43,557 bases of DNA, from the NCBI RefSeq assembly GCF_900112415.1, contig NZ_FOLV01000032.1:1-43557 (forward strand). The letters are read 5' to 3'. Source of the DNA: Bacillus sp. 491mf (GTDB lineage: Bacteria > Bacillota > Bacilli > Bacillales > Bacillaceae_G). The notes below the pieces were generated by a model. The model was not told where the DNA came from and made no database searches. It saw nothing but the letters and a program-made list of their open reading frames with translations. Below are positions 13,311-41,849 of the stretch, piece after piece; positions within the stretch are counted from its first letter, which is position 1, and the number at the start of each line of letters is the position of its first letter. Position numbers and translations under genes: made by a program.

Positions 13311-13354
13311 GCAGATTCATTTTTTGTTTAGGTTTTCTTTACTCTTGTTCAGTA

Positions 13355-13963
13355 TTATAAGTTAGTAGCGATATAGGAAGCAATTCCATTAAAAGAAGTT
13401 AATATAATTAAAAGACCAGAATATGCTATAGTAATAGGTTTTTTGTATCTTTCGTCTGAATTTTTAAATATTAAGTAAGCCCAAGTACTTAAAAATATTA
13501 TAAAAAAAATATCAATACTTTTAAAAATATTGAGAAGTATTTCGTTATGAAAAAAAACATTTAGTAATTCTAAAGAAAAATAGTTTATATTATCTGTTTT
13601 TATTACTATATTAGTAATGCCTTTAATTGAATTTCCAATTAATAAAAAAATATATGCTTTTATACCTGTATAAAAAATCTTTTTAAAATCTGCTTCTGTT
13701 GTAATTATTAAAAGTAATAACCAAATAATTGTACTATAAATTATTAAATTAAATATTGGTCCTGTTATACTAGAAAGAGCTCCTATACTTATTCCTATCC
13801 ATTTTCCTATAACTAAGGCTTTATTATCATTTGTTATGTTGGAAAGGTGACTTTCTAATTCATTAAGGTTTAAAAAGGTAACTGATAGGAATATTAGTGC
13901 GTTTATTAAGGATATAAGGAATAAAGTTAACATGGGTTTTTTAGGTATTTCATAAGATAACAT
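13355..13963 (-). CDS. Membrane protein of the circular-bacteriocin cluster, unknown role
   Basis: A 202-residue, very hydrophobic protein with five or six membrane segments (about 12-31, 52-72, 73-92, 97-115, 141-165 and 177-199) and few charged residues. It is the last gene of the minus-strand cluster, 20 bp after the SpoIIM-type gene, so it is probably in the same transcript. I do not recognise it by sequence; a Yip1-like membrane domain is possible. Circular bacteriocin loci usually carry one or more accessory membrane proteins needed for maturation or self-protection, and that is the likely setting here. Confidence 0.6.
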   Translation of the reverse strand: MLSYEIPKKPMLTLFLISLINALIFLSVTFLNLNELESHLSNITNDNKALVIGKWIGISIGALSSITGPIFNLIIYSTIIWLLLLIITTEADFKKIFYTGIKAYIFLLIGNSIKGITNIVIKTDNINYFSLELLNVFFHNEILLNIFKSIDIFFIIFLSTWAYLIFKNSDERYKKPITIAYSGLLIILTSFNGIASYIATNL

Positions 13964-13982
13964 AGTAAGTACACTCCTTCTT

Positions 13983-14537
13983 TCATTTTAAAAGTTTTAT
14001 TACCTCAAATTCAATTAATGCAGCTATTAATAGACATATAGTATTTGCAAGTATACATATAAGCAAACAATTTATAATTTTAGATATAATATTTTTTTGT
14101 CTTTTTTTTAAATTTTTGAAGAACATAGTGTATAAATATAATGAAGGTACGAATGCAAAATAAAAACCTAATAATTCAATTGGTGCATGGAATATTGAAT
14201 GTTTTATAGAAAAAACAAAACTTTCAGTCAACGAGAAAAATATAAATGCCGCTGTAAAATTGAGTCCATTAAGAAACATTATTATCATAGGTACCAATCC
14301 TATTGTAAAAAAACCTGTGAAAAATATTAATAGGGATACTTTTATATTGTTAAGAAAAATGTCTTTAAAAGAATTTACGTCTTGATTTTGGATTATGGTA
14401 TCTTTTTGAATATTGATCCCCATTGTAGCTATAGCTCCACCTATTCCAAAACACAATAAAAATAAGATGAAGATATTTATAAAAGTTTTTTTATCTTGCG
14501 ATAATTCTTTCAAACTCTTGATTAATACGTTCCTCAT
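13983..14537 (-). CDS. SpoIIM/DUF95-family membrane protein, circular bacteriocin maturation/immunity factor
   Basis: The protein has 184 residues from the ATG at 14537; AAAGGAG lies seven bases upstream inside the overlapping ATPase gene. About five membrane helices are present. The segment FLNGLNFTAAFIFF and the HAPIELLGFYFA motif correspond to the conserved N-G and H-x-x-E/P-x-E-x-x-G elements of the SpoIIM family (DUF95). Members of this family (for example the C proteins of AS-48 and circularin A loci) are a constant and diagnostic part of circular bacteriocin clusters, needed for secretion, cyclisation or producer protection. Translation is coupled to the ATPase gene. Confidence 0.78.
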   Translation of the reverse strand: MRNVLIKSLKELSQDKKTFINIFILFLLCFGIGGAIATMGINIQKDTIIQNQDVNSFKDIFLNNIKVSLLIFFTGFFTIGLVPMIIMFLNGLNFTAAFIFFSLTESFVFSIKHSIFHAPIELLGFYFAFVPSLYLYTMFFKNLKKRQKNIISKIINCLLICILANTICLLIAALIEFEVIKLLK

Positions 14538-15186
14538 CCCATTTCTCCTTTTGAACTGAATCAATTATACTTTTTATTTTCCCTTTATTAATGAAAATTA
14601 ATTGGTCACATAATTGAGCGGCAAATGAGAAAATATGTGTAGAAAATACTACTAAATTACCTGATTTTGCATAAGAAGATATAGTTGCTTTCATTATTTT
14701 TAAATGATGTGGATCTAATCCAGTAAAGGGTTCATCAAGTAATAGAATTTTTGGTGAATGTAAGGTAGCTATAATATATCCTAATCTTTGTTTCATTCCT
14801 CTAGATAGTTCTGAAATAAAAGTATTTTTTTTATCAAGTAATTCTACTTTAATTAATATATTTTCTAGTTCTTTATGCTGTAAATTTAATTTTCGGATTA
14901 AGTTTATATATTGAAGCATTTCAAATACAGTTAATTGTTCATAAAAAGATGGATTATCTTCCATATATCCAATAAATTGATTTTTAGATTGGTTATTCTC
15001 TTTGAATATTATTTCCCCTTGAGTAGGAGAAATAAGCCCTGTTATAATTTCTAGGAGCGTAGTTTTTCCAGCGCCATTTCTACCGATAAAACCAACAATG
15101 TTAGAAGGTTTTAATGTTAAATTTATGTTATCAAGAGCTTTAATGTTAGTTTCGTATTCTTTTGTTACCCCTTTTATTTCTAACAT
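14491..15186 (-). CDS. ABC transporter ATP-binding protein of the circular-bacteriocin cluster
   Basis: The protein has 231 residues. Walker A is GRNGAGKTT (about 35-43), the signature is LSRGMKQR and Walker B is ILLLDEPFTGLD. The switch His is in STHIF. It is of the drug/bacteriocin exporter type with a single nucleotide-binding domain and no membrane part, so it must work with the membrane proteins encoded beside it. AAGGAG, overlapping the last codons of the 496-residue gene, is 13 bases before the ATG. The 3' end overlaps the SpoIIM-type gene by 47 bp. The probable job is export of, or protection from, the circular peptide. Confidence 0.85.
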   Translation of the reverse strand: MLEIKGVTKEYETNIKALDNINLTLKPSNIVGFIGRNGAGKTTLLEIITGLISPTQGEIIFKENNQSKNQFIGYMEDNPSFYEQLTVFEMLQYINLIRKLNLQHKELENILIKVELLDKKNTFISELSRGMKQRLGYIIATLHSPKILLLDEPFTGLDPHHLKIMKATISSYAKSGNLVVFSTHIFSFAAQLCDQLIFINKGKIKSIIDSVQKEKWDEERINQEFERIIAR

Positions 15187-15196
15187 GGTTTTTGAA

Positions 15197-16687
15197 TCAC
15201 TCCTTAAATAATTTTAAAGATATATAGTTTTTTGTAAGTGACTTTTTACTGAGTAATATTGATAGCTGATATGTGAAAAAGCCAATTCCAATCATTAAAA
15301 ATGCATAGATTATAGTATAGACAAGGTAATTTTTAGTGAAAAAGATTAAAAAGAAGAAAATAATGTTTATACCTAATTGAATTGTATAAAAAGTAATAAA
15401 AGTTATTTTAGATAATGTTGTTGGAATTTCGTATATTTGTTCCCATTGGAAATTAGGGAAAATTACGGTTGAAAGTACAAGCATGTTTGAAGCATTTATA
15501 TAAAAAAATATAGTTGAAATGAGAATTGTTATTAATTCTCTATTGTTATTAGGTGGAACAATAATAAAAGATAGTATAGTAAGTAATGTACTGAAAAGTA
15601 GAGTGAATATCAGAGAAATGGAAATTTTAAAGTTGATTTTCCATTTTAAAAAATTATTTATGTGTTGCATTTTGTGCATAAGGTTTTTATCTAAGTCGTA
15701 ACTTATATAAGGATGTATTGCTAACATAACTACAATCATTGGCATATAGATCATAAAAACATATAATAAAAATCTATATTGATCGTCCATGTGAAGATTG
15801 TGTGTAGCTAAATAAGAGATACTACCAAATATTATTGTAGGAATGGTTAATATTACAATAAGTCCGGATAATTCTATTGGAGGATTTCTAAGTATTAATT
15901 TACTTTCTAAGATAAAAAGACTGTTGTTTTTTAACATTTTTCTTTTTTGTTTTTTTGGATGATTAGATAAGAAATATTCATTTAATGGGATTGTACTTTC
16001 TTCATTATTGTATCTAAAAAGTATTAGTAGACTTATGATTGTTAAAAAAATATATAGTAGTTCTGTAACAATTATAATGTTATTATGTAATCCATATTTA
16101 TATAAACGATAAATGCAATATCCCAAAATACCATATCCAATCCATGATAAAAATGATAATCCTAGCATCATGATTTTGATTTTAATATTACTTATTTTAA
16201 TAAGTAATATTAGTAATGAATATCTAAGAAAAAGACCTAAAAGTATATTTAAAGAACCGAATATTAATGATGTAAATGCTAGATTAAATTTAAGAGTAAC
16301 CATATAACAAATAAATAAGGTTAGATTAGATATAAATATTAATAAAATGTAGTGATAAAACTTATATAAATCTTTAGAAATTATATAGGATAATCTATTA
16401 AATCCTAAAAGTTGTAGTTGTTTTTTATCATCAGCGAAAAATAATCTGTATATTGTTTTGTCTAAATTATGAAAAGTAATAAGCAAGGGGAATATAACAA
16501 TGTAATGTATTGATTGCTCTTTTGTAAAATAAAATAATCCAATTGATAAAATAATTGGCATAAGGGCATCTATAAATAGAAAAATAAGGATACTAGTGAA
16601 GAAATTTTGTTTCTTAATAGTTTTATTTTTTAATTCTAGTAAATGATAGTAACAATAGATGAGTATTTTGTTTGTATTAGGTAACAA
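15197..16687 (-). CDS. Large polytopic membrane protein of the circular-bacteriocin cluster (B-type biosynthesis protein or ABC permease)
   Basis: The protein has 496 residues with about 12 predicted membrane segments and short basic loops; there is a longer hydrophilic stretch near the middle (residues ~235-260). It starts at TTG 16687 with AAAGGATGG five bases upstream. AT content is extreme. It lies directly after the precursor gene, the position held by the B protein (As-48B, CirB) in known circular bacteriocin loci. Alternatively it is an ABC-2-type permease for the adjacent ATPase. Its sequence alone does not let me decide between export and cyclisation. Confidence 0.65.
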   Translation of the reverse strand: MLPNTNKILIYCYYHLLELKNKTIKKQNFFTSILIFLFIDALMPIILSIGLFYFTKEQSIHYIVIFPLLITFHNLDKTIYRLFFADDKKQLQLLGFNRLSYIISKDLYKFYHYILLIFISNLTLFICYMVTLKFNLAFTSLIFGSLNILLGLFLRYSLLILLIKISNIKIKIMMLGLSFLSWIGYGILGYCIYRLYKYGLHNNIIIVTELLYIFLTIISLLILFRYNNEESTIPLNEYFLSNHPKKQKRKMLKNNSLFILESKLILRNPPIELSGLIVILTIPTIIFGSISYLATHNLHMDDQYRFLLYVFMIYMPMIVVMLAIHPYISYDLDKNLMHKMQHINNFLKWKINFKISISLIFTLLFSTLLTILSFIIVPPNNNRELITILISTIFFYINASNMLVLSTVIFPNFQWEQIYEIPTTLSKITFITFYTIQLGINIIFFFLIFFTKNYLVYTIIYAFLMIGIGFFTYQLSILLSKKSLTKNYISLKLFKE

Positions 16688-16740
16688 TTAGACCATCCTT
16701 TACTATTTATTCTGCTTTTACATTATTATATTTTAATATA

Positions 16741-16777
16741 AAAAGAAGGACTTATTAAGTAAATAAACCCTTCTTTT
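16741..16777 (-). terminator. Partial terminator between bacteriocin precursor and downstream genes
   Basis: On the minus strand AAAAGAAGG pairs with CCTTCTTTT, with extra TTTATT/AATAA pairing, followed by a short weak T-run (TTTTTATATT). It starts 9 bp after the precursor stop. This placement would leave the precursor mRNA abundant while letting some transcripts continue into the processing genes. Confidence 0.65.
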
Positions 16778-16785
16778 ATTGTTAA

Positions 16786-17088
16786 TTACCATTGAATTGC
16801 ATATCTTGTACCGTATTTACGAACTTGACTAATGAATATAGCGGCAACGGTTCCAAGTCCTGCACTTCCTAAAATAGCTGTAACTGCAGCAACCCATCCA
16901 GCAGTTTCTAATGCTACTCTAATAGCATGTATTGACCAAGCTGGAAGACCTGGGAATGTAAGTATTAAATTAGCCAATCCGGAAGAAGCACCTAGTTGTG
17001 CAAACATTAACGTCATGAGGGCGATTGTGGCAAGTGCTGTAAGACCTAAAAGTGCATTTATTCTGGTTTTGTTCAAAGTCATTGTCAT
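16786..17088 (-). CDS. Circular bacteriocin precursor (AS-48/uberolysin/circularin-like)
   Basis: The precursor has 100 residues from the ATG at 17088. The frame extends six codons further but those encode the ribosome site (AAAGGAGGTG, seven bases from the ATG). The first 31 residues are a leader with a hydrophobic stretch. The predicted core (L32-W100, 69 residues) is almost all Ala/Gly/Leu/Ile/Val, forms several amphipathic helices, and ends in VRKYGTRYAIQW. Closely similar endings are KKYGKKYAAAW of amylocyclicin, KKAIQL of carnocyclin and KRAVIAW of AS-48. The segment ETAGWVAAVTAIL recalls EAGGWVTTIVSIL of AS-48. After leader removal, Leu32 and Trp100 would be joined head to tail to give a membrane-permeabilising peptide. 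The cleavage point is my inference. Confidence 0.85.
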   Translation of the reverse strand: MTMTLNKTRINALLGLTALATIALMTLMFAQLGASSGLANLILTFPGLPAWSIHAIRVALETAGWVAAVTAILGSAGLGTVAAIFISQVRKYGTRYAIQW

Positions 17089-17300
17089 TTTTTCACCTCC
17101 TTTCAATATTTTATAGATGGCTTTATTGTCGGAAATAACAGAAAATCACTCCCAGAGATAGGGTTTTCTTCCATATAATTCTATTTATATATTATATTTA
17201 CATCTAAAAAAAATAAAGTGTTTGTTTAAAAGAAAAAGTTGAGAAAGTTTTTTTGCAAGTTATTTGTTGGGTATTAGGAATTATTGGATTGATAAAAGTA

Positions 17301-17340
17301 AAAAAAGACATCTAAAAGGTTATTAATAGATGTCTTTTTT
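17301..17340. terminator. Bidirectional terminator between immunity candidate and precursor
   Basis: AAAAAAGACATCTA pairs with TAGATGTCTTTTTT across a 12-nt loop. It ends the gene at 17346-17564, so that gene is transcribed separately from the precursor. In the 17100-17300 leader of the precursor I see a minus-strand TATAAT (within GTAAATATAATA) but no good -35. Confidence 0.85.
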
Positions 17341-17345
17341 TACTT

Positions 17346-17564
17346 TTACTTTTTGTTTGTTCTTTTTTTTAAAGTGTTAGTTAATATTAAGGAAATACAA
17401 CCTATTCCTCCGATGAGAATTAGATAATCAAAAGTGTCTATCTTATTATTAATGAGATTTAGTATGAATTTTATAATACTAAATGTAGCTAATATTAGTA
17501 AGATTACTTTAAATAAGGGAGAGATATTATCTACAGGATTTTGAATTTTTTTAGGGTTTTCCAT
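17346..17564 (-). CDS. 72-residue basic two-span membrane protein, candidate bacteriocin immunity protein
   Basis: The protein has 72 residues from the ATG at 17564 with AAGGTGG nine bases upstream; the longer frame lacks a ribosome site. Two hydrophobic segments (about 16-36 and 45-63) are bracketed by Lys-rich ends (start MENPKK, end LKKRTNKK), giving a strongly positive protein. Small cationic membrane proteins of 50-60+ residues provide self-immunity in AS-48, circularin and related loci. It has its own promoter and terminator, so it could be expressed independently of the toxin. There is no direct sequence match I can name; the function is inferred from size, charge and place. Confidence 0.6.
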   Translation of the reverse strand: MENPKKIQNPVDNISPLFKVILLILATFSIIKFILNLINNKIDTFDYLILIGGIGCISLILTNTLKKRTNKK

Positions 17565-17606
17565 TGAATTTCCACCTTTTTGAATTTTATGAATATTTAT
17601 AATAAT

Positions 17607-17637
17607 AGTATATACATAAAAAATTTGATATATCAAA
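17607..17637 (-). promoter_or_regulatory. Promoter of the immunity candidate with a palindrome over the -35
   Basis: On the minus strand TTGATA (17636-17631), 18-nt spacer, TATACT (17612-17607). The -35 lies inside the perfect 14-bp palindrome TTTGATATATCAAA (17624-17637), a plausible repressor site. Confidence 0.5.
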
Positions 17638-17836
17638 TGAAAGAATAAAACCATTGATATTACTGTGCTATTTTTTGCCAATCTAATATGCTTGTCTTTC
17701 TAACTCTCTATATAAGGAGTTAAAGATTCCTAAAGGAACGGATAGTATTTTCTTTTGTTTTGTTATATTACCTCCTTGAAGAATTATTTTGGCAAGTATA
17801 GATATGTCGCTAAGCCGAACAGACAAAAACGGGATG

Positions 17837-17887
17837 TTGACCTGGTTTGACCTGGACTAGCAGTTATACCCGCCGAACCGCTAGTCC
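17837..17887. other. Structured, GC-richer block with direct and inverted repeats
   Basis: Two copies of TTGACCTGG (17837 and 17847, 10-bp period) are followed by a hairpin. GGACTAGC (17854-17861) pairs with GCTAGTCC (17880-17887), and GTT pairs with AAC inside. A further GACTAGC lies near 17953 and a small GGGG/CCCC hairpin near 17934-17946. The whole 17682-18098 gap has no convincing gene. The block stands out from the very AT-rich surroundings and could be a recombination or protein-binding site or a small RNA; no family recognised. Confidence 0.4.
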
Positions 17888-18098
17888 TTCCGTTCAAAAT
17901 GGTGTTCTTTTGCTATATATATCAAAGCCATGTGGGGTTTTATCCCCGACACGACTAGCCAGCACTTACACCCAAAAACAAGGGAACTAATTGAGGGTTT
18001 GTAATAATTAGAATATTCCGCATTTTATTTCTAAAATATAATTAAGTTTACATATTGAGGTGATTATTTTTACGTTTAAAAGAATAAAAGGGGGATTG

Positions 18099-18241: not shown

Positions 18242-18465
18242 ATGGAGGAATTAGAAGCAGCTGTCATACAAGATCGTGAGGATCATGGGAAAAGCTTTAA
18301 ACCTTAAAAAGGAAGGTGTTTCCACAAAAGATAAAATTCGCGAAAGTAAAACAGATCTAGACAGTGGTTTTTTAATGAGAGCTGGAAAACGATTATATAA
18401 AGTACGCTGTTCTACAATTGAGCGGAGTTTTGCCGATGCCAAAGAAATCCATAGTTACAATAAAA
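18242..18465 (+). pseudogene. Remnant of an IS1182-type DDE transposase
   Basis: The first frame (18242-18307) encodes EELEAAVIQDREDHGKSFKP; a +1 shift then continues as KKEGVSTKDKIRESKTDLDSG and jumps to a C-terminal-like block, RLYKVRCSTIERSFADAKE. Together these follow the order found in IS1182-family transposases (D-R-x-E-H-G-K, then TTDPDSGYM, then the ETIER-x-FADAK end). There is one frameshift and a large internal deletion, so it is dead. It lies between the bacteriocin island and the SASP genes. Confidence 0.7.
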
Positions 18466-18482
18466 GTTCCCAACACTCTGGA

Positions 18483-18512
18483 AAGGTCTCAAGCGATGCT
18501 TGAGACCTTTTT
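18483..18512. terminator. Terminator of the leftward SASP gene
   Basis: AAGGTCTCAAG pairs with CTTGAGACCTT around a 5-nt loop. T-rich sequence follows on the plus strand (TTTTT) and the minus strand has TTTCC only; it most likely serves both sides. Confidence 0.75.
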
Positions 18513-18523
18513 GCCATATATAT

Positions 18524-18724
18524 TTATTTGTGAAATCCGCCAAGGCTTTGTTCAGCCATTGCTACTAAACGTTTTGTAATTTCTCCACCTACTGAACCGT
18601 TTGCACGAGCTGTTGTATCAGCACCTAATGATACTCCGAATTCAGTTGCAATCTCGTACTTCATTTGGTCTAAAGCACTCTCTGCACCAGGTACTACTAA
18701 TTGGTTAGAACTTCTGTTTGTCAT
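18524..18724 (-). CDS. Small acid-soluble spore protein, alpha/beta type
   Basis: The protein has 66 residues. It contains both SASP signatures: the germination-protease cleavage region [10 protein letters not shown] and the C-terminal [21 protein letters not shown]. In the forespore it coats DNA, forces it towards an A-like form and protects it from UV, heat and chemicals; during outgrowth it is degraded by Gpr for amino acids. GGAGGA precedes the ATG. A sigma-G promoter lies about 105 bp upstream, and the 5' leader between them contains a tRNA-like fold. A divergent, closely related SASP gene lies 252 bp away. Confidence 0.96.
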
Positions 18725-18976: not shown

Positions 18977-19171
18977 ATGACTAGAAGCAATAATCTTGTA
19001 GTTCCTGGTGCGGAAAGCGCATTAGATCAAATGAAGTATGAAATCGCAACTGAGTTTGGCGTACAACTTGGCGCAGATTCAACATCACGTGCAAACGGAT
19101 CTGTTGGCGGTGAAATTACAAAACGCCTTGTATCTTATGCAGAGCAACATTTAGGTGGTTTCCAAAAATAA
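18977..19171 (+). CDS. Small acid-soluble spore protein, alpha/beta type (second copy)
   Basis: The protein has 64 residues and is about 85% like the divergent SASP. It contains [10 protein letters not shown] (Gpr cleavage site) and [21 protein letters not shown]. It is a forespore DNA-binding and DNA-protecting protein. AAGGAGGTG precedes the ATG by eight bases, and a sigma-G promoter lies 30 bp further up. It is followed at about 25 bp by a small GGGACGG/CCGTCCC hairpin and TTTTTT (19186-19214) that ends its transcript. In B. subtilis the matching locus holds sspB among the yhe genes. Confidence 0.96.
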
Positions 19172-34114: not shown

Positions 34115-35113
34115 TTAACGAATTCTAGCCTTACGGAAGCCATCAAATACACTGATTGCTGCAAATAAAATAAAGATGAAAATTCCACCGCCAACTACCC
34201 ATGTTTCAAATTGATTAGCTGTTATGTTACATAAATTAGCCATATACGTAATATAATCTTTGGTTATCACATTCGGATTTATTACTATAACAGTGAATAC
34301 AATGGTGGAGATAAGCTGGAGTGCAGTATTACAAATTGCAATTCCTTTTGTCCATTGTCCTTGTATTAATTTATAGAGAGCTAATGCTACTTCGAAACAA
34401 ATTACAACAAGAACGATTGGCCAATATCCAAGTAAAACTTTCTGATTAAAAGTTAGGGTCACGAGTTCAAGTCCGTCTCTGCCGCGTTCATATATACCTA
34501 CAAGATGACTCGTATAAAAATAAAGAGTTGACCAAATCGCAGTCCACATTAAACTTCCAAATACTTCGCCTTTCGTAATCGCTTTTTTCTTAGGAATGTT
34601 AGGGGTATTCTTCAAATCATCAGGTGTCCATTTTTTAAAGCTTGCTGTTAATGGCTCTCCATCTTTTCCTTTATCTACTCTTTCTAAAATAGCAAACACA
34701 AGTGTTAGCCAAAAGAATACGTGGATCCCTACTTCAATGATGCCCCCTATTCCTTTTCCTATAAGACTAAAAACAGTATTTATAACCGCTTGGTCGCCGC
34801 CATAGCCAATAAAATGTTCGGCAATCACCGAGATTAACGAAATGACAGCGGCAATCGGTAAAATCATTTTTAGTAGCGTCACATATCCCTCAAAATAGTG
34901 TGGACCAATTAAGTGCATTGGCCAGTCTCGATAACCATTAGCCATTGTGACTGGATTCCCCAATTTTGCAAGAACTGCCTTTACATCTTCTTCACTATAA
35001 TCATCAGGCAGCATATCCTCAATGGTTGACCGTAACTCTAGCGCAATATCCTCACGATTTTTTTCAGGTAGCCTCCGAGTAACTTCTTGTATATAAATCT
35101 CAATCAGATTCAT
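34115..35113 (-). CDS. HAAS-domain multi-span membrane protein partnered with a PadR regulator
   Basis: The protein has 332 residues. A cytosolic N-terminal HAAS-type helical domain (about 1-75: YIQEVTRRLPEKNREDIALELRSTIEDML with EEDVKAVLAKLGNP) is followed by about six membrane helices. HAAS domains occur in proteins encoded directly after PadR regulators and are thought to sense or signal at the membrane. The gene starts 14 bp inside the end of the padR gene, so translation is coupled. The function of the membrane part is unknown; no ABC partner is next to it. Confidence 0.8.
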   Translation of the reverse strand: MNLIEIYIQEVTRRLPEKNREDIALELRSTIEDMLPDDYSEEDVKAVLAKLGNPVTMANGYRDWPMHLIGPHYFEGYVTLLKMILPIAAVISLISVIAEHFIGYGGDQAVINTVFSLIGKGIGGIIEVGIHVFFWLTLVFAILERVDKGKDGEPLTASFKKWTPDDLKNTPNIPKKKAITKGEVFGSLMWTAIWSTLYFYTSHLVGIYERGRDGLELVTLTFNQKVLLGYWPIVLVVICFEVALALYKLIQGQWTKGIAICNTALQLISTIVFTVIVINPNVITKDYITYMANLCNITANQFETWVVGGGIFIFILFAAISVFDGFRKARIR

Positions 35114-35447
35114 CGTCTTCCTCCTTTTTTAATAAGCTATAGAGCTCTTTCGAATTCTTAAGCCATTCCCTTTTTAACTGTAAAAAGATCTCTAACCCAT
35201 ATTCACTTAAAACATAAAACTTACGGGGTCTACTCTCAGATGTATCCCAACTACTCGTCACTAATTCCTGTTTCTCCAATCGGCGAAGCAATGGATATAA
35301 GGTACTTTGTTCAATGGTAATGCCCGATTCCTCCAATAACTGAACAAGTGAATATCCATACTGGGGTGTTCGTAATTGACTTAAAACGGCTAATGTCAAC
35401 GTTCCCCTCCTAAGCTCAGTCGTTAATGAATTCAATAAAGTACTCAT
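35100..35447 (-). CDS. PadR-family transcriptional regulator (pair 1)
   Basis: The protein has 115 residues with a winged helix-turn-helix at the N-terminus: TLTLAVLSQLRTPQYGYSLVQLLEE, then TLYPLLRRLEKQELV, the conserved PadR recognition-helix region, and a C-terminal dimerising helix. Such regulators usually repress their own operon and respond to a small molecule or membrane stress. Two related 19-bp sites lie 20-70 bp upstream and are likely its operators. It heads a two-gene operon with the HAAS membrane protein. Confidence 0.9.
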   Translation of the reverse strand: MSTLLNSLTTELRRGTLTLAVLSQLRTPQYGYSLVQLLEESGITIEQSTLYPLLRRLEKQELVTSSWDTSESRPRKFYVLSEYGLEIFLQLKREWLKNSKELYSLLKKEEDDESD

Positions 35448-36808: not shown

Positions 36809-37041
36809 AAATTTTATCTCTTTTTAGTTGTCTATGGGAATCTAGTTCATTTGTTGTTTTAGAAAATAATAAATTTCTTAGCATGGTGGCGATGTACCGG
36901 TACTCTTTTATAAAATTTAAATTCAAAATATATATAGGATTTCTTTTAATTTATATAAAAATTTTTATCTTTTGTATAATTAAACTTTACTTTTTTATAA
37001 AATAAGTTTAATATAGGTGTTAGGAAAGGAAGGTGTTAACT

Positions 37042-37278
37042 ATGAAGGAAAAACATGGAGACTCTATAACGAATAAAGTGTATGAATATAGAGTATTAAA
37101 AAGAATGTCACAAAAAGATTTAGCTGATGCTGTTGGAGTTTCTAAACAAACGATATTTGTTATGGAAAAGAACAATTATTCTCCTTCACTGGTGTTAGCA
37201 TATCGAATAGCAAATTATTTTGAAGTTGATATAAACGAAATATTCTCTTATGTAGGAAAGGAAGATAATAATGATTGA
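37042..37278 (+). CDS. Small XRE/Cro-CI-type HTH regulator
   Basis: The protein has 78 residues from the ATG at 37042 (GGAAGG eight bases upstream). It is almost entirely one helix-turn-helix domain: [47 protein letters not shown]. The V-S-K-Q-T-I recognition helix and short length are typical of regulators paired with a small membrane protein. It overlaps the next gene by eight bases, so the two are translationally coupled. It probably controls its own operon. No palindrome strong enough to call was found upstream. Confidence 0.88.
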
Positions 37279-37600
37279 TCTATTAAACAAATGGATGTTA
37301 GAAAGCACAAACAATTTCAATATCGTTGTAGGATTTACTGCAGTTCTATTTTTGGGTTCATTAATTGCACTTTTCATTATCAGCAAAAAATTTGGTCAAC
37401 CAGATGAAAGAACAAATGGTATTTATCTTAAAATTATTTCTCGTATGTTTTCTACTCAAATTATAATGAATGCTATATTTATTTCTTTAGTTGGTAAAGA
37501 TATTGAAAATTTCCGTCAAATCTTCATATTATTTGAAGCCGTTGTATTCTTCGTTGGAGCTATTTATTCGTTTAAATTATATAGACAGGAATTTAAATAA
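37271..37600 (+). CDS. Membrane protein partnered with the XRE regulator (DUF2178-like)
   Basis: The protein has 109 residues with about three or four membrane segments (18-38, 55-73, 82-102). The cytosolic-side motif [15 protein letters not shown] recalls the K-x-D-E-R-x-x-x-I block of DUF2178-type proteins, which are commonly encoded after small XRE regulators. It starts inside the last codons of the regulator gene (GGAAAGGAAG upstream). It may sequester or signal to the regulator; this is inferred from gene pairing. Confidence 0.72.
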
Positions 37601-37622
37601 TTCACTTGCAAGAAACAATAGA

Positions 37623-37658
37623 AAAACAGTAGTGATTTTATGCACTACTGTTTTTTTT
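37623..37658 (+). terminator. Terminator of the XRE-membrane protein operon
   Basis: AAACAGTAGTG pairs with CACTACTGTTT around an 8-nt loop, in a run of eight T. Confidence 0.92.
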
Positions 37659-37848
37659 ATTGCCCCTTTTTGAAAGTAAACTTTTAAATATAAATTTACA
37701 TTCATAAAAATAATTAATCGTATTCAAAACTGTAAATACTAAAAAGCAAACAAAGAAAACCTATTTGTAATAAAAAGCCTAGTAAAAATGCATTATGTAT
37801 ATTAAAATATCCATATATTGTCAATGTATGGAATATAAGGGGCTTTTA

Positions 37849-38410: not shown

Positions 38411-38465
38411 ATTAAAATAAAGCTTTCATGAAATTAGGTTACTAAAAGTGTCTTTATGTTGTTTT

Positions 38466-38479
38466 ACGACATATGTCGT
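38466..38479. promoter_or_regulatory. Perfect 14-bp palindrome, putative PadR operator
   Basis: ACGACATATGTCGT is a perfect palindrome 29 bp before the padR start. Partial half-sites (ACGATGTATGT) lie directly downstream. It contains the ATGT-type half-sites used by PadR proteins. Confidence 0.6.
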
Positions 38480-38507
38480 GTTACGATGTATGTTAGGGGG
38501 TGGAAAA

Positions 38508-38837
38508 ATGGATAAAGAGATGATGAAAGGAAGTATTGATATACTTGTACTTTCTATAATTTCTCACGATGATACTTACGGTTATGAAATTATTCAAAAA
38601 CTTAAAGAACAAAGTAACGATGTTTACCATATGAGTCAAGGTACACTATACCCAGCACTCAAACGAATGGAACAAAAGAATTTGATTGAATCTTACTGGG
38701 GAGAATCAGAAACAGGACAAAAAAGAAAATTTTACCGTATTACTATAGCTGGCAAGGAAGAACTAGAGAAGAAGCTGAATTATTGGGAGCAAATTACTGC
38801 GCTTATTCAAGCTTGCAGGAAGGGAGAATTTGCATGA
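38508..38837 (+). CDS. PadR-family transcriptional regulator (pair 2)
   Basis: The protein has 109 residues from the ATG at 38508 with GGGGGTGG just upstream; the longer frame runs through the operator. The winged HTH comprises MMKGSIDILVLSIIS, GYEIIQKLKEQ and MSQGTLYPALKRMEQKNLI, typical of the short PadR subfamily. The C-terminal helix (KEELEKKLNYWEQITALI) dimerises. It overlaps the HAAS gene by ATGA. It likely represses the two-gene operon through the palindrome at 38466-38479. Confidence 0.9.
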   Translation: MDKEMMKGSIDILVLSIISHDDTYGYEIIQKLKEQSNDVYHMSQGTLYPALKRMEQKNLIESYWGESETGQKRKFYRITIAGKEELEKKLNYWEQITALIQACRKGEFA

Positions 38838-39559
38838 AAGAATTTGAAAATTACATAGAACGTATTGTAAAAAAAACTGCTCTAGATAAGGCGGCTCGTG
38901 AAGAACTATCTTTAGAATTGCTCGATCACCTCAATAGTTTAAAAGAAGAATATATTAAAAAAGGGATGTCTGCAAAACAGGCAAAACAATTAGCCATACA
39001 ACATTTTGGAGAACCAAATTTTATTGGCGGAGAACTTCAAAAATCTATTTTTCCATATGAAAAGTTCATAAAGCGTTTTGCATGGTCTTTATTTGTTCCT
39101 TATATATTATTCTTTATTTGGTATGAGTACTTAGGAAATAGCGCTGGTCGTGAGTGGTTTCTTGGGATTATTGAGCAATTTTCAAGAAATCATGATGTGA
39201 TGTGGTTGCTTCGCACTTTTGTTGATATTACACCTTTCTATACCCTTTTTCTGTATAACATACCTGGCTTTTGGATAGCTCATGCAGTTAAACCCATTAT
39301 CTTAATGATTCCATTGGGATTTTTAATTCCGATTTTATTTCATAGGTTCCGTTCTTTTAAAGCAGCTTTTATGCTCTTTATTAAATTAACTTTAAGCATT
39401 GAGTTGTTGTATATTGTCATGCTAGTAGGTACTTTTAGCACTACTGGTCTTATTTTAGATTTGGTTGGCCTCTTAGTTGGGTTTATGGGGTGGAAATTAC
39501 TACAGAGGCTGCAAGTTAAGAAATTCATTAAACCATCTAATCCGAACTATGTGAAGTGA
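38834..39559 (+). CDS. HAAS-domain membrane protein partnered with PadR (pair 2)
   Basis: The protein has 241 residues from the ATG at 38834 (GGAAGGGAG upstream). The cytosolic HAAS domain is at the N-terminus (AAREELSLELLDHLNSLKEEYIKKG and AKQAKQLAIQHFGEP), with about four or five membrane helices after residue 75. The C-terminus is basic. It is analogous to the protein at 34115-35113 but only the HAAS part looks related. The overlap with padR and the shared operator indicate a closed sensing circuit; the signal is unknown. Confidence 0.82.
   Translation: MKEFENYIERIVKKTALDKAAREELSLELLDHLNSLKEEYIKKGMSAKQAKQLAIQHFGEPNFIGGELQKSIFPYEKFIKRFAWSLFVPYILFFIWYEYLGNSAGREWFLGIIEQFSRNHDVMWLLRTFVDITPFYTLFLYNIPGFWIAHAVKPIILMIPLGFLIPILFHRFRSFKAAFMLFIKLTLSIELLYIVMLVGTFSTTGLILDLVGLLVGFMGWKLLQRLQVKKFIKPSNPNYVK

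Positions 39560-39740: not shown

Positions 39741-41849
<2,109 letters not shown>

Follow-up and report, generated by a model that had tools for sequence, protein, structure and literature searches.

A probable circular bacteriocin cluster with a strongly diverged precursor in an AT-rich island of Bacillus sp. 491mf

Can a circular bacteriocin locus be recognised when its precursor peptide escapes the profiles by which such peptides are annotated? The question is raised by a 43,557-nucleotide stretch of DNA from Bacillus sp. 491mf (contig NZ_FOLV01000032.1; hereafter the window), in which six uninterrupted minus-strand open reading frames (ORFs) occupy an AT-rich island. Counted over 13340-17565, the GC content is 24.8%; 1-kb segments elsewhere mostly have 35-42%, and another AT-rich stretch lies at about 37-38 kb. 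A preliminary description of this DNA had read the island as a cluster for a circular bacteriocin, a class of unusually stable antimicrobial peptides, with a precursor divergent enough to be a possible new member. The island and its intact ORFs are confirmed, and we consider it highly probable (roughly 0.87), judging from sequence, that the locus is a circular bacteriocin cluster of the AS-48/NKR-5-3B type whose precursor has strongly diverged. This reading rests on the gene content, on the SpoIIM match of one partner protein and on the end-to-end likeness of the predicted core to AS-48 and to an NKR-5-3B-like plasmid peptide (NKR-like below); cyclisation, core boundary, protein roles and activity are what we infer. 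A divergent member with the usual types of partner gene helps to reveal which residues and genes are essential.

The precursor and its predicted core

Alignments of the C-terminal part of the 100-amino-acid (aa) precursor with four reference precursors (AS-48, Listeria, NKR-like and Anoxybacillus) provide the central evidence. Aligned globally, its C-terminal 59 residues give scores of 65 with AS-48 and 55 with the NKR-like core, values that the C-terminal 59-mers of the other 349 of 350 ORFs do not approach (at most 6 and 13, respectively; stop-to-stop ORFs of at least 60 aa from the window and four plasmid loci). The maximum reached against AS-48 by 2000 shuffles of the core is 22. Whichever of four assumed starts is used, the scores against the AS-48, Listeria and NKR-like cores are reached by none of 2000 shuffles each, and that against the Anoxybacillus core by 4-11. 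Ungapped, precursor residues 47-84 match AS-48 residues 6-43 over 38 positions at a score that none of 1000 shuffles reaches; for the Listeria core, 4 of 1000 do so. The C-terminal 12-mer attains scores that, out of 10000 shuffles, one reaches for AS-48, none for the Listeria and NKR-like cores and eight for Anoxybacillus.

Searches by other routes lead to the same peptides. AS-48 and NKR-5-3B hold ranks 1 and 2 among the 11 matches listed in an open search of the PDB (177,635 sequences). A profile built from the four reference cores ranks the precursor first among 408 window ORFs, and when the run is repeated from the ATG, its score is reached by 0 of 1000 of its own shuffles. The same profile yields 26.3 bits for carnocyclin A, 53.7 for circularin A, 55.1 for amylocyclicin and 5.5 for gassericin A. 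As judged from these alignments, the predicted core is similar to known circular cores above chance.

The preliminary description had placed the first core residue at position 32, which fares poorly in a scan of starts 24-49 against the AS-48, Listeria, NKR-like and Anoxybacillus cores (52/53/51/21, in that order). Starts 41 (66/63/51/23) and 42 (65/61/55/17) are the best for the AS-48 and Listeria cores; start 43 gives 60/57/51/17 and start 38 gives 62/59/51/22. Residue 28 (60/59/59/27) is the top start for the NKR-like core, at 59 versus 55 at 42 and 51 at 41. A first MAFFT alignment of the full precursors likewise aligned Gly6 of AS-48 with Gly33 instead of Gly47, pointing to a start near 28, while pairing Gly47 with Gly6 of AS-48 or of the NKR-like core puts the first core residue at about 42, or at one of the adjoining positions 41 and 43. 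Because the top ungapped match pairs GLPAW with GIPAA, a predicted start at 41-43 is favoured, with 28 as the alternative.

With a start at 41-43 the predicted leader has 40-42 residues; published leaders range from 2 to 48 (PMC8659200). The predicted ring would comprise 58-60 residues, a length resembling that of several known rings (PMC7132975), with an isoelectric point (pI) of 10.3 and a grand average of hydropathy of 0.8-0.9; the reference cores have 8.5-10.2 and 0.5-1.2, respectively. Computed monoisotopic masses of the cyclic product are 6346.53 Da for start 41, 6233.45 Da for 42, 6120.36 Da for 43, 7116.92 Da for 32 and 7594.13 Da for 28.

Partner proteins, RNA signals and a proposed mechanism

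The minimum described for circular bacteriocin clusters, namely a precursor, a SpoIIM/DUF95 gene and ATP-binding or transporter genes (PMC8534725, PMC8659200), is found at the island, as judged by the ORFs, by PF01944 and PF00005, and by alignment in the case of the precursor (Table 1). The DUF95 domain predicted in the 184-aa protein is there (PF01944, expectation value (E) 2.4e-17, 63.8 bits, cut-off 26.9; searched from an upstream TTG), as is the ATP-binding cassette (ABC) ATPase announced for the 231-aa protein (PF00005, E 2.7e-29). Among 57 window ORFs, the SpoIIM protein is the top match of the AS-48 and the Listeria C (SpoIIM) proteins alike, with or without composition correction, and compared as a pair alone with the Anoxybacillus C protein it gives E 5.9e-5; the PDB holds no SpoIIM relative at E<=1. 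The 202-aa protein has no Pfam family at E<=5 and matches NF052650 (YknW) at E 1.9e-9 with 37.4 bits, under the cut-off of 110. We take YknW to be a Yip1-type family. According to PMC8659200, Yip1 proteins occur commonly in circular bacteriocin clusters, and the gene types of the island, Yip1 included, agree with published clusters.

Neither Pfam nor NCBIfam offers a match for the 496-aa protein, and the B proteins of the AS-48 and Anoxybacillus clusters are likewise without a family. Without composition correction, the AS-48 B protein finds it first among the 57 window ORFs at E 7.9e-9, the runner-up standing at 0.042, and the Listeria B protein, whose annotated length is just 363 aa, also finds it first (E 0.008). 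Position and type, with weak support from sequence comparison, suggest that it is the B-type protein. The preliminary description gave it about 12 membrane spans; the multi-span character holds, and the hydropathy count is 11, alongside 3 for the 184-aa, 4 for the 202-aa and 2 for the 72-aa proteins and 0 for the ATPase. No convincing homolog of the 72-aa protein emerged from Pfam or from comparison with the reference clusters.

Table 1. Features of the island and its immediate surroundings, by position in the window
Feature	Coordinates	Strand	Evidence and remarks
Six uninterrupted ORFs	13355-17564	-	ORF list
Four-span membrane protein, YknW (Yip1-like) type, 202 aa	13355-13963	-	NF052650, below cut-off
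SpoIIM/DUF95 membrane protein, 184 aa	13983-14537	-	PF01944
ABC transporter ATP-binding protein, 231 aa	14491-15186	-	PF00005
Multi-span membrane protein, putative B-type, 496 aa	15197-16687	-	TTG start
Stem-loop with U-rich tail, gap between precursor and 496-aa genes	16735-16786	-	-13.7 kcal/mol, z -4.10 (200 shuffles)
Putative precursor, 100 aa	16786-17088	-	ATG at 17088, preceded by AAAGGAGGTGA; hydrophobic leader; C-terminal RKYGTRYAIQW
Strong terminator hairpin between the 72-aa and precursor genes, 3' of the former	17290-17345	-	-21.7 kcal/mol, z -9.11
Cationic two-span membrane protein, 72 aa	17346-17564	-	pI 9.8
Probable relic of a non-coding element of a small MobV plasmid	17699-17986		blastn E 5e-30, 79.2% identity, B. 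paramobilis plasmid
DDE transposase-like fragment (DDE_Tnp_1_6)	18276-18503	+	PF13751 E 1e-4, 23.0 bits, cut-off 25.1

The first 47 nucleotides of the SpoIIM gene lie within the end of the ATPase gene, an arrangement of translational coupling. Two RNA structures with U-rich tails, both folding far more stably than shuffled sequence, frame the precursor gene: the hairpin on its upstream side has perfect 22-nucleotide arms, and the stem-loop behind it is likely to be a partial terminator or attenuator that would allow an excess of precursor over the partner proteins. A promoter scan was uninformative (36 sites versus 38.3 in shuffles). At Rfam gathering scores the window holds only a lysine riboswitch, far from the island (RF00168, 2986-3165, minus strand, 130.4 bits), ahead of an amino-acid permease gene.

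If the locus is a circular bacteriocin cluster, the precursor would be made in excess, favoured by a strong ribosome site and by the attenuator behind its gene. After removal of the hydrophobic leader, most likely of about 40 residues, the exposed N-terminus (most probably residue 41-43) would be joined to Trp100 to give a cationic, hydrophobic ring. The SpoIIM protein, the ATPase and the 496-aa protein may form one unit for maturation and export; SpoIIM is placed there because loss of DUF95 in the leucocyclicin Q system leaves the mature circular product in the cells, pointing to a role in export (PMC6131525). Type and position make the 72-aa protein a candidate immunity protein that would protect the producer, possibly together with the YknW-like protein, which may serve accessory transport or immunity. 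Like others of its class, the ring would act on related Gram-positive bacteria, killing them by making their membranes permeable. The cluster had been called complete, which is not demonstrable because, according to PMC8659200 and PMC6131525, no ring-closing (cleavage or ligation) enzyme is known for the class as a whole.

A plasmid relic beside the island

Directly upstream of the 72-aa gene lies a sequence of 40.3% GC that matches 11 of 72,556 plasmid records at E<=0.1 (Table 1); its outlying piece, 17699-17751, is part of the match in two plasmids. In all four plasmids compared, mob (plasmid recombination) is followed by a gene for a 203-225-aa protein, with a copy of the element close downstream of it, and one of the four carries a second copy elsewhere. 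Three of the four small post-mob proteins were searched in Pfam and gave weak winged-helix matches, one of them also a weak RepL match (E 0.015). By its position the element is probably a replication or single-strand origin; its covariation (34 pairs, two with compensatory change, term +1.44) is too little for a claim of structure. The mob and rep-like proteins of the four plasmids have no match in the window with an E below 0.008. In these plasmids the rep-like gene occupies the side of the element that corresponds to the bacteriocin genes of the window. Records labelled Streptomyces (5 of the 11), Pseudomonas fluorescens and an alpha-proteobacterial endosymbiont are also among those matching the element. 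These host labels may be wrong, or the samples mixed, since two such records show Bacillus-plasmid-like gene content.

The simplest reading is that the island probably entered the genome when a small mobilisable plasmid integrated there, with transfer presumed to run from plasmid to genome, and that the plasmid's own genes have since been lost; the two are linked only by neighbourhood. The relic and the transposase-like fragment are new relative to the preliminary description, and the relic represents a concrete possible route by which such clusters spread. Plasmid searches by tblastn revealed no such cluster, the 496-aa and SpoIIM proteins having no relative there. The ATPase matches at least 5000 plasmid records and is unspecific; a Staphylococcus plasmid locus among these matches proved not to be a bacteriocin cluster. 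As DNA, 13000-17720 matches 253 plasmid records, and in the best 25 of the 253 the match is confined to the chromosomal amino-acid ABC gene. Viral contigs yielded no confirmed relative of the precursor, the SpoIIM protein, the 496-aa protein or the four reference cores.

The island sits between an amino-acid ABC transporter (end 13192) and two alpha/beta-type small acid-soluble spore protein genes (18524-18724, minus strand; 18977-19171, plus strand), and genes for a DUF445 protein and an ATP-grasp protein of YheC/D type are also found around it. The spore genes (small acid-soluble proteins, YheC/D) point to a host within the Bacillaceae. The two spore protein genes, in opposite orientation, lie inside 192-nucleotide inverted repeat arms that are 74% complementary, an inverted duplication adjoining the island that could favour rearrangement. 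In the other AT-rich stretch, 452 bp (37234-37685) are 89.4% identical to Bacillus arachidis plasmid NZ_CP127375, a small plasmid that also matches the 17699-17986 relic; the segment includes a 109-aa ORF (37271-37600) behind a small gene resembling helix-turn-helix regulators (37033-37278). Elsewhere the window carries two PadR regulator genes, each with a neighbour (34115-35447 and 38448-39559; one neighbour with a HAAS domain, one VanZ-like), and a 682-aa alpha-amylase family protein (39801-41849) with an N-terminal immunoglobulin-like domain and an N-terminus that looks secreted.

Competing explanations and known systems

Several results weigh against a circular bacteriocin cluster. The precursor has no Pfam family at E<=10 and no circular bacteriocin model in NCBIfam, where its top match has E 0.067; another protein family, which the preliminary description had named as grounds for refutation, is thereby not convincingly indicated either. 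PF09221 (Bacteriocin_IId) and TIGR03651 (circ_ocin_uber) are matched by all four reference precursors and not by that of the window. The four-core profile gives it only 8.7 bits, beaten by 3 of 2000 shuffles; the PDB matches (E 0.27 for AS-48, 0.32 for NKR-5-3B) are not significant alone; and ungapped alignment with the circularin-like Anoxybacillus core stays at chance level (360 of 1000 shuffles). With composition correction, the 496-aa protein remains first for the AS-48 B protein, at E 0.16, and drops to third for the Listeria B protein, while the window counterparts of the Anoxybacillus B and C proteins are absent from the best four window ORFs of each. For the precursor, tblastn against plasmids detected no relative, and none was confirmed in genome contigs by an exact 8-residue scan, a weak search that likewise missed the DUF445 host protein. 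Two single-sequence AlphaFold models gave long helices without an interpretable fold (predicted template modelling score 0.35). Known structures of the class would lead one to expect a saposin-like bundle of helices. The window precursor lies outside PF09221, TIGR03651 and PF12173 (BacteriocIIc_cy) as modelled. The last of these, a gassericin A-like family (subgroup ii) of neutral cores, is matched by gassericin A and has no match to the precursor at E<=10, the predicted core having a pI of 10.3. Failure in the curated profiles weakens the claim to membership of these families, not the claim to a circular mode of working, and profile-based annotation can miss clusters such as this one. Four fragments of the core had no hit in a text search of papers, which would not see sequences shown in figures or supplements.

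Curated circular families would also be failed by a linear or leaderless membrane-active bacteriocin that is exported by a similar ABC/YknW-type system and never cyclised, and the leaderless-bacteriocin literature mentions Yip1 as well. We nevertheless hold this to be very unlikely, given the long hydrophobic N-terminal extension ahead of the circular-core-like part, an alignment that runs end to end with the C-terminal Trp region included, and the presence of SpoIIM. Slightly less likely again, in our estimate, is the case in which SpoIIM and the ABC membrane proteins serve some other cellular role and the small hydrophobic protein is no bacteriocin. SpoIIM domains are indeed widespread (PF01944 matches 7 of 14 control genomes, B. 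subtilis included) and the 496-aa and 202-aa proteins are without a Pfam family; the AS-48 match far above 349 ORF ends and 2000 shuffles speaks for a bacteriocin, and the plasmid relic and low GC suggest acquired cargo. It is somewhat easier to imagine, though still improbable, that a former circular bacteriocin cluster has been silent or incomplete since plasmid integration. The relic and the transposase fragment attest decay beside the island, and no accessory ABC set or regulator is evident among the ORFs of 13355-17826. Against this stand six intact ORFs, the retained overlap of the ATPase and SpoIIM genes, and the usual size of circular clusters, 4-10 genes (PMC7132975).

With a circular bacteriocin cluster as the preferred reading, a further and more tentative proposal concerns its place in the class: the locus may be the first seen member of a separate family outside PF09221, TIGR03651 and PF12173, with a compact ring of 58-60 residues, an AS-48-like first half and an NKR-5-3B/carnocyclin-like C-terminus, which reaches Bacillaceae chromosomes on small mobilisable plasmids. 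We think it rather more apt to fail than to hold, and its odds are slightly lowered by the start scan, which makes the compact ring less certain.

Among known systems, the cerecyclin cluster of the Bacillus cereus group, compared by description only, shares a precursor, a membrane protein, DUF95, an ATPase and a YIP1 protein with the window, and differs in its leader of only 4 residues, its regulator and an additional ABC set, cycEFG (PMC8534725). Carnocyclin A (PDB 2kjf) has a core of similar length (60 aa) and is also far from the AS-48/NKR profile (26.3 bits); unlike the window precursor, it passes PF09221 (27.5 bits).

Enterocin AS-48 (pPD1, NZ_KT290268) shares the long hydrophobic leader, the large membrane protein, SpoIIM, the ATPase and the small cationic membrane protein. 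The cores have in common the motifs G-(I/L)-P-A, E-x-(A/G)-G-W-V and C-terminal K-x-G-x-R...W, with 34% identity in one alignment. A start at 41-43 makes the window core about 10-12 residues shorter, the gap presumably taking the place of AS-48 helix 4. The AS-48 subfamily (group 3, PMC8659200) is marked by KEF in core positions 3-5 and by a Pro located four residues ahead of cleavage. The window precursor has neither: its aligned start reads ILTFPG, and a start at 41-43 is not preceded by Pro at that distance. No accessory transporter is visible, unlike in AS-48. The gene order (precursor, B, ATPase, SpoIIM, YknW) differs from that of AS-48 (precursor, B, SpoIIM, ATPase, small protein), as the preliminary description had remarked; since order varies between published groups, the difference is not diagnostic. 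Enterocin NKR-5-3B (PDB 2mp8) is 27% identical to the window core, and the likeness to it and to the NKR-like plasmid peptide lies in the C-terminal 20 residues, VAAIFISQVRKYGTRYAIQW versus IVATAKSLIKKYGAKYAAAW, a match equalled by 1 of 1000 shuffles.

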